A stretch of DNA of 64,000 bases from Thermohalobacter berrensis (GTDB lineage: Bacteria > Bacillota > Clostridia > Tissierellales > Thermohalobacteraceae): contig NZ_MCIB01000039.1 in the NCBI RefSeq assembly GCF_003609645.1, positions 1 to 64,000 of the forward strand, in the 5' to 3' direction. Positions 3,851-63,535 of this stretch are shown in pieces. The translations under genes were made by a program, and so were the position numbers. Each line of letters begins with the position of its first letter. Positions within the stretch are counted from its first letter, which is position 1. The notes beneath the pieces were generated by a model. The model had not been told where the DNA came from. It searched no databases and worked only from the letters and a program-made list of their open reading frames with translations.

Positions 3851-3956
3851 TCCCTCTCTTTTAGATTTATTAAAAATTTTTAAATAATTTGCATAATTAT
3901 TTGAACAGTCTTATAATCATAATTTTAATATATTTTTTTATTTTTGGCAAATTCAT

Positions 3957-4004
3957 TTTTTTCCACTGTTTTTATTTGTTTATAATTTCCTATGTGTTGT
4001 AAGA
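3957..4004. repeat. Degenerate copy A of the two-hairpin intergenic repeat
   Basis: The right half, including TATAATTTCCTATGTGTT at 3981-3998, matches the copies at 16.6, 20.4 and 63.5 kb. The left arm and the first hairpin have decayed. It lies in the 365-base gap between pyc and the anti-sigma-type gene; apart from this and the terminator at 4121-4150 the gap holds only AT-rich sequence. Confidence 0.7.
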
Positions 4005-15212: not shown

Positions 15213-15297
15213 TGGTGCGGGAGAGAGGACTCGAACCCCCACGCCATAAGGCACTAGATCCTAAGTCTAGCGCGTCTGCCAATTCCGCCACTCCCGC
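15213..15297 (-). tRNA. tRNA-Leu (anticodon UAG)
   Basis: An 85-nt tRNA with a long variable arm, acceptor GCGGGAG/CTCCCGC, and encoded CCA. The anticodon loop is CTTAGGA within GCTAGA/TCTAGT, reading UAG. It is identical to the copy at 23715-23799. Confidence 0.97.
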
Positions 15298-16504: not shown

Positions 16505-16547
16505 ATTATCATCCCTTCAAGTTACAAAACTTCTTAAAATAAAAAAG

Positions 16548-16660
16548 TCTTCTATTAAAATAGAAGATTCTCACAGGTTGACTTTTTTGAAACACATAAC
16601 GGAAATTATATTTTATCTACTATTTTTATTTGATTATAATTTCCTATATGTTATAAAAAA
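16548..16660. repeat. Copy B of the two-hairpin intergenic repeat
   Basis: A small hairpin TCTTCTATT/AATAGAAGA (16548-16567) is followed by GGTTGACTTTTTTGA and a long inverted repeat, AACACATAACGGAAATTATA (16591-16610) against 16635-16652. The loop has TTATCTACT where copies C and D have TTATCCACA. It lies 44 bases upstream of the SRAP start. Confidence 0.85.
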
Positions 16661-20189: not shown

Positions 20190-20366
20190 TTTACTACACT
20201 ATCCAAAAGCTTCACTCCTGTAAAGTTTTTTGATAATGCTTTTTTCAAAGGTTCTTGATTAATAAGTTTTTAATTTATTAACCTTTCCCTTTGATATTAT
20301 ATTAATACCCTGTCCATATATTATTAAACATGTTTTTTATAAAAAATTTTTTGTTAATATAAAAAA

Positions 20367-20477
20367 TTTTCTATTAAAATAGAATATTCTTAAGGTTGAC
20401 TTTTTTGAAACACATAAGGGAAATTATATTTTATCCACAATTTTTATTTGATTATAACTTCCTATGTGTTATAAAAA
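20367..20477. repeat. Copy C of the two-hairpin intergenic repeat
   Basis: It has a small hairpin, GGTTGACTTTTTTGA, then inverted arms AACACATAAGGGAAATTATA (20409-20428) and 20453-20470. The loop holds an exact DnaA-box sequence TTATCCACA at 20431-20439. Confidence 0.85.
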
Positions 20478-23181: not shown

Positions 23182-23258
23182 TGGTGCGCCCTGAGGGACT
23201 CGAACCCCCAACCAACTGATTCGAAGTCAGCGACTCTATCCAGTTGAGCTAAGGGCGC
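23182..23258 (-). tRNA. tRNA-Arg (anticodon UCG)
   Basis: 77 nt with encoded CCA, acceptor GCGCCCT/AGGGCGC and anticodon loop CTTCGAA. Confidence 0.96.
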
Positions 23259-23304
23259 ATAGGGGAGATGAAAGTATGTGTTGAACTTTGTCGTATGATG
23301 CAAA

Positions 23305-23333
23305 AACTCAAAAAAGTTGGCTTTAAGCCAACC
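23305..23333 (-). terminator. Hairpin after tRNA-Arg(UCU), first copy
   Basis: GTTGGC/GCCAAC stem followed on the minus strand by TTTTTTGAG. It would partly separate the two Arg tRNAs. Confidence 0.65.
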
Positions 23334-23369
23334 ACTTCTAGGTTGAATTATATTGGTTTATAGTTAAGT

Positions 23370-23446
23370 TGGTGCACCTGGGAGGATTCGAACCCCCGAC
23401 ACACGGATTAGAAGTCCGTTGCTCTATCCAACTGAGCTACAGGTGC
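23370..23446 (-). tRNA. tRNA-Arg (anticodon UCU), copy 1
   Basis: 77 nt with encoded CCA, acceptor GCACCTG, anticodon loop CTTCTAA. It is identical to the copy at 23983-24059. The 185 bases upstream (23447-23631) hold no gene and no clear promoter. Confidence 0.96.
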
Positions 23447-23631
23447 AAAACTAAATCCGTTAGAATTTAAAATGTTAAATTTAAAATTGAAAATCAACTT
23501 ATAAAAACCTTATATTTATATTTCTTTTATATATTATTTACATATACTGAAATTTTATTCTAAACAAAAAAAGAAACTATATTTTACATTTTTCATTATT
23601 AATTTTAAATTCCTTACTTTAGTAAGGTAAT

Positions 23632-23706
23632 TGGAGCGGGAGACGGGATTCGAACCCGCGCCCCCCACCTTGGCAAGGTGGTGCTCTACCCCTGAGCTAC
23701 TCCCGC
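23632..23706 (-). tRNA. tRNA-Gly (anticodon GCC)
   Basis: 75 nt with encoded CCA, acceptor GCGGGAG and anticodon loop TTGCCAA. It is the last member of the closely spaced six-tRNA group. Confidence 0.96.
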
Positions 23707-23714
23707 AGGGGAAT

Positions 23715-23799
23715 TGGTGCGGGAGAGAGGACTCGAACCCCCACGCCATAAGGCACTAGATCCTAAGTCTAGCGCGTCTGCCAATTCCGCCACTCCCGC
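23715..23799 (-). tRNA. tRNA-Leu (anticodon UAG), second copy
   Basis: 85 nt with long variable arm and encoded CCA; base-for-base the same as 15213-15297. Confidence 0.97.
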
Positions 23800-23804
23800 A
23801 CAAG

Positions 23805-23880
23805 TGGTGACCCATCTGCGACTCGAACGCAGGACACCCGGATTAAAAGTCCGGTGCTCTACCAACTGAGCTAATGGGTC
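23805..23880 (-). tRNA. tRNA-Lys (anticodon UUU)
   Basis: 76 nt with encoded CCA, acceptor GACCCAT and anticodon loop CTTTTAA. Confidence 0.96.
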
Positions 23881-23894
23881 ATATTATAATATAT

Positions 23895-23972
<78 letters not shown>

Positions 23973-23982
23973 TCGTTTTTAA

Positions 23983-24059
23983 TGGTGCACCTGGGAGGAT
24001 TCGAACCCCCGACACACGGATTAGAAGTCCGTTGCTCTATCCAACTGAGCTACAGGTGC
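23983..24059 (-). tRNA. tRNA-Arg (anticodon UCU), copy 2
   Basis: 77 nt with encoded CCA, identical to the copy at 23370-23446. Confidence 0.96.
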
Positions 24060-24064
24060 ATAAA

Positions 24065-24138
24065 TGGAGCGGGTGAAGGGAATCGAACCCTCGCAACTGG
24101 CTTGGAAGGCCAGGGCTCTACCACTGAGCTACACCCGC
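24065..24138 (-). tRNA. tRNA-Gly (anticodon UCC)
   Basis: 74 nt with encoded CCA, acceptor GCGGGTG, anticodon loop CTTCCAA. It is the first tRNA after the promoter at 24162-24190. Confidence 0.96.
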
Positions 24139-63358: not shown

Positions 63359-63420
63359 CAAATAATCCCCCTTTTAAGGCACTCTTTATTAAATTATAAC
63401 TTATAATTAAGTGAATAAAA

Positions 63421-63535
63421 AAGTCTTCAATTTTAATAAAAGATTCTAAAGGTTGACTTTTTTGAAACACATAACGCAAATTATATTTTATCCACAATTT
63501 TTATTTGTTTATAATTTCCTATGTGTTATAAAAAA
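63421..63535. repeat. Copy D of the two-hairpin intergenic repeat
   Basis: It has a degenerate first hairpin, GGTTGACTTTTTTGA, then inverted arms 63466-63485 and 63510-63527. The loop has the exact DnaA-box sequence TTATCCACA at 63488-63496. It lies in the gap upstream of the response regulator gene. Confidence 0.85.

Follow-up and report, generated by a model that had tools for sequence, protein, structure and literature searches.

A two-hairpin repeat of clostridial genomes, probably a non-autonomous mobile element that inserts beside terminator-like hairpins

Introduction

Repeats of the bcr1 type have been reported, in the accessible portions of two studies, as restricted to the Bacillus cereus group (PMC6542083, PMC3446304), and repetitive extragenic palindromes (REPs) have been described, in the available part of another source, as sequences of 20-40 bp, one end of which bears a GTAG or CGTC tag (PMC3733652). 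Stem-loop families of Clostridium perfringens and C. tetani are listed in the available part of a further paper (PMC2267715). The repeat that is the subject of this study was noticed in a stretch of 64,000 nucleotides of Thermohalobacter berrensis (positions 1 to 64,000 of contig NZ_MCIB01000039.1, assembly GCF_003609645.1), in the following called the window, and one of its copies, copy A, occupies positions 20361..20472 of the forward strand (+). A literature search found no report of this repeat family, most subscription papers being outside its reach.

The element is about 110 bp long, non-coding and devoid of genes. It is probably a non-autonomous mobile DNA element that consists of two hairpins joined by GAAA and lies next to a terminator-like hairpin. 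The evidence is provided by its many copies, by its presence and absence at orthologous sites, by the hairpin found at its right end and by the covariation of its stems.

Results

Structure of the element

In the consensus of the aligned T. berrensis copies (a slash marks a junction with the flanking DNA), the left part reads (W)AT/AAAAAAGTC-TTCTATT-AAAA-ATAGAAGATTCTCAAGGTT-GACTTTTTT, followed by GAAA, and the right part reads NNCAT..ACGGAAATTATA, loop, TATAATTTCCTATGNN, TTAT/AAAA, with an AC bulge kept in the left arm of hairpin 2. In the outer stem of hairpin 1 the A-tract of the left end is paired with the T-tract of a sequence that a preliminary description of this DNA had called constant; that description missed the outer stem, and its small hairpin sits within this stem or competes with it. 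In the alignment, each end of the element (left AAAAAAGTCTTC, reversed right ATAACACATAGG) is part of a hairpin of its own, and terminal inverted repeats are lacking, so that the "inverted ends" claimed earlier do not hold in the usual sense.

Copy number and distribution

A BLAST search of the T. berrensis genome with copy A yielded 40 matches with E values from 4e-58 to 5e-17, which are all 40 that were scored out of 107 first-look candidates. A covariance model yielded 46 matches at an E value of 0.01 or better, two of which were discounted as antisense echoes of other hits; the genome-wide search thus found further copies beyond the window and 44 places in total, the last few of which are weak. 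The mean column identity of 30 aligned copies was 86%. When the two hairpins were modelled separately, they were found side by side at 41 places. Solitary hits were few: hairpin 1 gave one at C24 and two weak partial ones, and hairpin 2 gave one at C36:117799, besides copy D of the window.

The element is not confined to T. berrensis. A pattern scan of genome contigs returned 82 stretches, which come from metagenome-assembled genomes (MAGs) and from organisms with eleven genus names (Intestinibacter, Asaccharospora, Paraclostridium, Thermotalea, Maledivibacter, Caloranaerobacter, Tissierella, Lutispora, Alkalithermobacter, Acetoanaerobium and Anaerosolibacter). The five genus names that were checked taxonomically belong to two classes, three orders and five families. 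The distribution is patchy: within the order to which the window belongs, the strict pattern was present in 10 of 249 genomes and a reversed-pattern control in 0 of 249. Two copies in a genome of another family (G013) are 92% and 90% identical to copy A, a similarity that would fit horizontal spread. No match to the element was found in viral contigs, which were searched with the strict pattern, or in the plasmids and phages searched, and I. bartlettii had no copy in the first 400 kb of its genome. The model found 33 hits in G041 and 11 in G046. Head-to-tail arrays occur in the MAG G259, in G017 and in G041, and in G259 hairpin 1 and hairpin 2 types are mixed between copies.

Empty orthologous sites

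The flanks of about eight copies of Intestinibacter bartlettii DSM 16795 were searched in five genomes, and six sites could be aligned. The element was absent from the alignable orthologous gaps of G042, G048 and G049. The junctions were readable at three sites (L131, L136 and L088), the sequences of G050 being too diverged to read. At L131 the filled site has GCATA, the element and AAAAAAAGCTG, and in two relatives the empty site has GCATT directly followed by AAAAAAGCTG; the empty sites corresponding to L136 and L088 read AATAAAAAAATC and AATAAAAGG, respectively. In addition, the sequence of the copy at L127 recurs unchanged at another site, L136. Among 42 Caloranaerobacter loci of three species, which are part of the copies so that orthologues may be missed, only two cross-species pairs have flanks in common. 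Because empty orthologous sites exist in related Intestinibacter, three of them with readable junctions, the element is mobile. The earlier suggestion of a small non-autonomous mobile element is thereby strengthened by three kinds of evidence, that is, many copies, spread across families, and absence from orthologous gaps.

At the orthologue of the L131 site in G048 (L201), a different or decayed hairpin, GGAAATTATA...TATAATTTCC, was observed directly before the same terminator.

The target site

The right flanks of the element are rich in hairpins. With a threshold of -8 kcal/mol or better, and with copies directly followed by another element left out (3 of 100 loci of other genomes were omitted as arrays, and 4 of 31 T. 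berrensis loci were omitted, three of them for short flanks), a hairpin was found within 60 bases to the right in 17/27 T. berrensis copies, as compared with 0/27 to the left, 0/27 at a distance of 130 bases and 1/27 in shuffled sequences. The corresponding numbers for other genomes were 48/97 to the right versus 11 to the left, 12 at a distance and 4 after shuffling. From their sequences, many of the right-hand hairpins would be intrinsic terminators.

The left flank has a T at position -1 in 76/101 copies and an A at position -2 in 77/101. ATAAA (TTTAT on the other strand) is present at both junctions in 23/30 T. berrensis copies and is not general in Caloranaerobacter. The junctions are compatible with the absence of a target duplication and also with a short ATAAA (TTTAT) repeat, two readings that are indistinguishable because of the A-runs.

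A preference for one replication strand was considered and rejected. With replication origin and terminus taken from sampled GC skew, 23 elements of I. bartlettii DSM 16795 are oriented against the fork versus 7 (30 of 33 hits, after the removal of three that matched only hairpin 2), a skew that gene orientation could cause; in G017 the bias is weak, with only 13 or 14 against the fork versus 10 (arrays counted once, hits pooled).

Covariation of the two hairpins

The strict hairpin 2 pattern is fitted by 121 unique copies. The two wildcard bases on each side of the foot of hairpin 2 were fully complementary in 111 of these, whereas 1000 shuffles averaged 28.7 and never exceeded 45. In the outer stem of hairpin 1, all nine bases matched in 71/121 copies and at least eight in 101/121, and when the 3' strand was compared with the upstream sequence of other genera, a perfect partner was found in 4.1%. 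It should be noted that this window of nine bases, with its broader range of start positions, was chosen after the result of a first test had been seen, in which own and swapped strands were not distinguished by a window of 12 bases (8.76 vs 8.06). Within T. berrensis, seven pairs were changed on both sides, whereas shuffles gave 2.4 and slid controls no more than 4; the structure used for this count had been derived from these very sequences. As the outer stem of hairpin 1 shows hardly any variation in this genome, it was tested across genera only.

Thus, both hairpins covary across genera, and the arm changes preserve pairing. The other half of the earlier suggestion, that of a conserved structured RNA, holds insofar as pairing is kept and covaries; it does not single out RNA function, because a mobile element that is recognised as folded DNA would covary too.

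A possible mechanism of insertion

On these grounds, insertion would occur at (W)AT/AAAA beside a hairpin resembling an intrinsic terminator. Read on the terminator strand, the target would consist of the hairpin, its T-tract and ATW; the element would follow the T-tract and would itself end in hairpin 1 and a T-tract, thereby recreating the target at its far end. We infer that the terminator-like hairpin of the element is a mimic of the target. A copy of the target at the end of the element would explain the head-to-tail arrays as well as the tolerance of insertion beside a terminator. The enzyme would act in trans and would recognise folded, probably single-stranded hairpins.

The search for a mobilising enzyme

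Among 31 genomes examined, 26 had matches to the Y1 transposase family (PF01797), with four in G000. No Y1 match was found in G001, G041, G046, G049 and G261, and G259, which contains dozens of copies of the element, had only two Y1 fragments with 22.3 and 20.9 bits. The element was present in one of 20 Y1 stretches. The reverse transcriptase domain RVT_1 was found in 7/16 genomes (G259 was not among the 16), with no match in G000, G001, G002, G013, G019, G038, G041, G042 and G046, and the IS110-type transposase PF02371 was found in 7/12 genomes, with no match in G002, G041, G043, G046 and G259. Because the copy-rich genomes G041 and G046 match none of the three families, the usual enzymes do not explain the mobility of the element. 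G041 is a complete genome; the other genomes are drafts or MAGs in which a gap may hide a gene, and the mobiliser may also have been lost.

No autonomous parent element was found in 464 kb of the T. berrensis genome, the half-element models revealed none with separated ends, and none was present in the collected loci, in which the one candidate pair turned out to be an element interrupted by another insert. The 1173 open reading frames of these loci were clustered, and no transposase or recombinase was recognised in the 16 largest clusters, which were judged by sequence, without a Pfam run.

We tentatively propose that the elements are a clostridial family of minimal mobile elements that depend for their movement on an enzyme belonging to none of the Y1, IS110 and reverse transcriptase families, that this enzyme recognises the two hairpins in their folded form and joins them to the end of a terminator T-tract, and that the element's own hairpin serves as the target mimic; this is a possibility that we regard as open to considerable doubt. 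If true, such an enzyme would represent an unrecognised transposition system.

Evidence against mobility and alternative explanations

Several observations weigh against a mobile element with the proposed target. A mobiliser was not found in the searches described above, and neither excision nor a new insertion was observed. The preference for the right-hand side is weaker when it is measured by T-runs (TTTT 15-60 bases to the right in 62/95, versus 47 to the left and 40 at a distance). Caloranaerobacter copies often have a G instead of a T before the left end, and the WAT rule is thus not universal. Lastly, the two orthologous Caloranaerobacter pairs (genomes G001-G003) disagree with each other. 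In the first pair (L289/L298) the element has 1/122 differences versus 24/200 in the adjacent flanks, a conservation that could mean a function for the host; the second pair (L291/L297) is the reverse, with 12/120 differences in the element versus 10/200 in the flanks.

Four other explanations have to be considered. The element might be an ends-only derivative (a palindrome-associated transposable element, PATE) or a REP-like partner of a Y1 transposase of the IS200/IS605 or REP-associated tyrosine transposase (RAYT) type, which would move it as single-stranded DNA. The lack of inverted repeats, the hairpin at both ends, the fixed short motif of the left flank that resembles the right end, the single orientation towards the target hairpin and the frequency of Y1 matches in the genomes examined would all be accounted for. 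Nevertheless, we consider it unlikely, given the five genomes without any Y1 match, the mere fragments in G259 and the near absence of the element from Y1 stretches. Moreover, the hairpins of IS200/IS605 elements are subterminal, and the stems of the present element run to its very ends.

A structured element that is useful to the host, either as a bidirectional terminator or as an RNA, and that is kept and spread for this function, is improbable. The covariation of both hairpins and the strong conservation of the L289/L298 copy would agree with it, as would the resemblance of hairpin 1 with its flanking A- and T-tracts to a bidirectional terminator; the patchy occurrence, the empty sites, the tandem arrays, the low conservation of the L291/L297 copy and the lack of a fitting Rfam family speak against it.

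A retroelement similar to short interspersed nuclear elements, the A-rich 3' end of which would prime on the terminator T-tract with a reverse transcriptase supplied in trans, was suggested by the T-tract target and by 5'-truncated copies with intact right ends (copy D of the window and L075, L079, L091, L106, L123 and L151). This is very unlikely, as the set of truncated copies had been picked by intact right halves, half elements are few for either side throughout the genome, and the RVT_1 domain is absent from more than half of the 16 genomes, including G000, G001, G002 and G041.

The DnaA box

The preliminary description had placed the DnaA-box sequence TTATCCACA in the loops of copies A and C and TTATCTACT in that of copy B, which the sequence bears out. 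By itself, TTATCCACA is not rare in the window, with four exact occurrences and 31 with at most one mismatch versus 22.2 (sd 4.9) in shuffles. In the loops the exact box was found in 16/26 copies of T. berrensis, 9/26 of G001, 2/8 of G002, 2/6 of G003, 1/2 of G013, 2/5 of Thermotalea, 8/13 of Intestinibacter and 8/11 of G259 type I. The other seven groups had no exact box, and six of the seven had none within one mismatch; loops without a box at up to one mismatch were those of G017 (6), G259 type II (12), Tissierella/Lutispora (11), Maledivibacter (3), Paraclostridium/Asaccharospora (2) and G019 (1). Relative to the remainder of the loop, the box shows slightly higher conservation (0.948 vs 0.924 in T. 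berrensis and 0.854 vs 0.808 in Caloranaerobacter), mainly at A/T positions, and its cytosines were compared with all C/G positions (0.889 vs 0.887 and 0.738 vs 0.875, respectively); part of the Caloranaerobacter set had been picked by intact arms.

A dispersed DnaA-binding (titration) site, the role that the box had brought to mind, is the least credible explanation, for in spite of the many exact boxes and their slightly better conservation, entire subfamilies are devoid of the box, and conservation at its cytosines does not exceed that at other C/G positions. It is these two findings, and not the A/T positions, that weaken a DnaA function. The box may be part of the ancestral loop, and a minor role is possible.

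The copies of the window

In copy A, hairpin 1 extends from 20361..20406 (+), with an outer stem that is weak in this copy (AAAAAATTT vs GACTTTTTT), and hairpin 2 from 20409..20470 (+), both according to the half-element models; the DnaA-box-like TTATCCACA in the loop is at 20431..20439 (+) by sequence match. The limits of the full element, from the left end of hairpin 1 to TTAT, were given by BLAST, the covariance model and the sequence. Copy B (16541..16654, +, loop TTATCTACT at 16613-16621) and copy C (63417..63529, +, TTATCCACA at 63488-63496) are full elements by BLAST and the covariance model, and a palindromic sequence, AACCTACATATT...AATATGTAGGTT, lies directly to the right of copy C. 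All three have the order small hairpin, GGTTGACTTTTTTGA, long hairpin, just as had been described, and in a scan of the window at 0 mismatches GGTTGACTTTTTTGA was found only in them. The fourth of the four copies claimed, copy D (about 3947..4000, +, by sequence), is a 5'-truncated relic that comprises only the right half of hairpin 2; neither the small hairpin nor the left arm was found in it.

The genes that flank the full copies are ordinary. Copy A is situated between genes for a holin-family and an AIM24 protein, copy B between those for an SRAP peptidase and a CitMHS transporter, and copy C between those for a response regulator and a DUF4342 protein. RNA folding was better than in shuffled sequences for copies A (z -2.7) and B (z -4.6), weakly so for copy C (z -1.7) and not for copy D (z 0.2). 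At the gathering score an Rfam scan of the window found only tRNAs, and the best lax match of copy A, MIR398, had 16.6 bits versus a cut-off of 55, so that no Rfam family fits.

The tRNA genes of the window comprise a cluster of eight at 23185-24138 (-) and one further gene at 15216-15297 (-).

Larger and interrupted repeats

In G001 a larger repeat of ~230-365 bases, present in four copies (L271, L272, L277 and L281), contains the element. Next to it lies a sequence similar to the TwoAYGGAY RNA, which scores below the cut-off of 43 (34.1 bits at L281 and 26.9 at L277). In the MAG G259 (L144, about 130-230), the right arm of hairpin 2 is broken by a different insert of ~95 bases, which consists of two palindromes and has TATAATT on both sides.

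Discussion

Many clostridial genera have one small mobile repeat in common. This repeat settles at the ends of genes, brings along its own terminator-like hairpin, and suggests a mobilising activity for which the usual candidate enzymes do not account. With the element, its target and its empty sites now sufficiently defined, a search for this enzyme becomes feasible, and a role in binding DnaA becomes unlikely.

Compared with known systems, the element is small, non-coding, multicopy and intergenic like the miniature inverted-repeat transposable elements of DDE transposases, but it lacks terminal inverted repeats. As in REPs and their RAYTs, insofar as the available part of the source describes them (PMC3733652), extragenic palindromes are involved that are thought to be moved by an enzyme of the Y1 type. 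In contrast to REPs, the element is ~110 bp long, its ends (AAAAAAGTC.. and ..TTAT) carry no GTAG or CGTC tag, and it was not near Y1 genes in 19/20 stretches.

The likeness to PATEs, the ends-only elements of IS200/IS605, is closer. According to the accessible text on PATEs (PMC7290912), these lack terminal inverted repeats, have a hairpin at each end, show no clear target duplication and are moved in trans; the first two features are shared by the present element, which would likewise be moved in trans. With respect to the insertion site, AT precedes the left end in most copies and G in many Caloranaerobacter copies, and the junctions would agree with the absence of a target duplication as well as with a short ATAAA repeat. 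The element differs from PATEs in that a Y1 gene is missing in 5/31 genomes examined, that its stems reach the very ends, and that no parent element with matching ends was found in the T. berrensis genome and the collected loci.

By description, the nearest analogue in behaviour is provided by the bcr1-type repeats (group A of the Bacillus cereus repeats, BCR) of the B. cereus group. The element was found in clostridial genera, with no Bacillus record among the 82 stretches of the pattern scan, but like the bcr1-type repeats, as they are characterized in the accessible portions of the two studies (PMC6542083, PMC3446304), it has TTTAT at both junctions, here in 23/30 T. berrensis copies.
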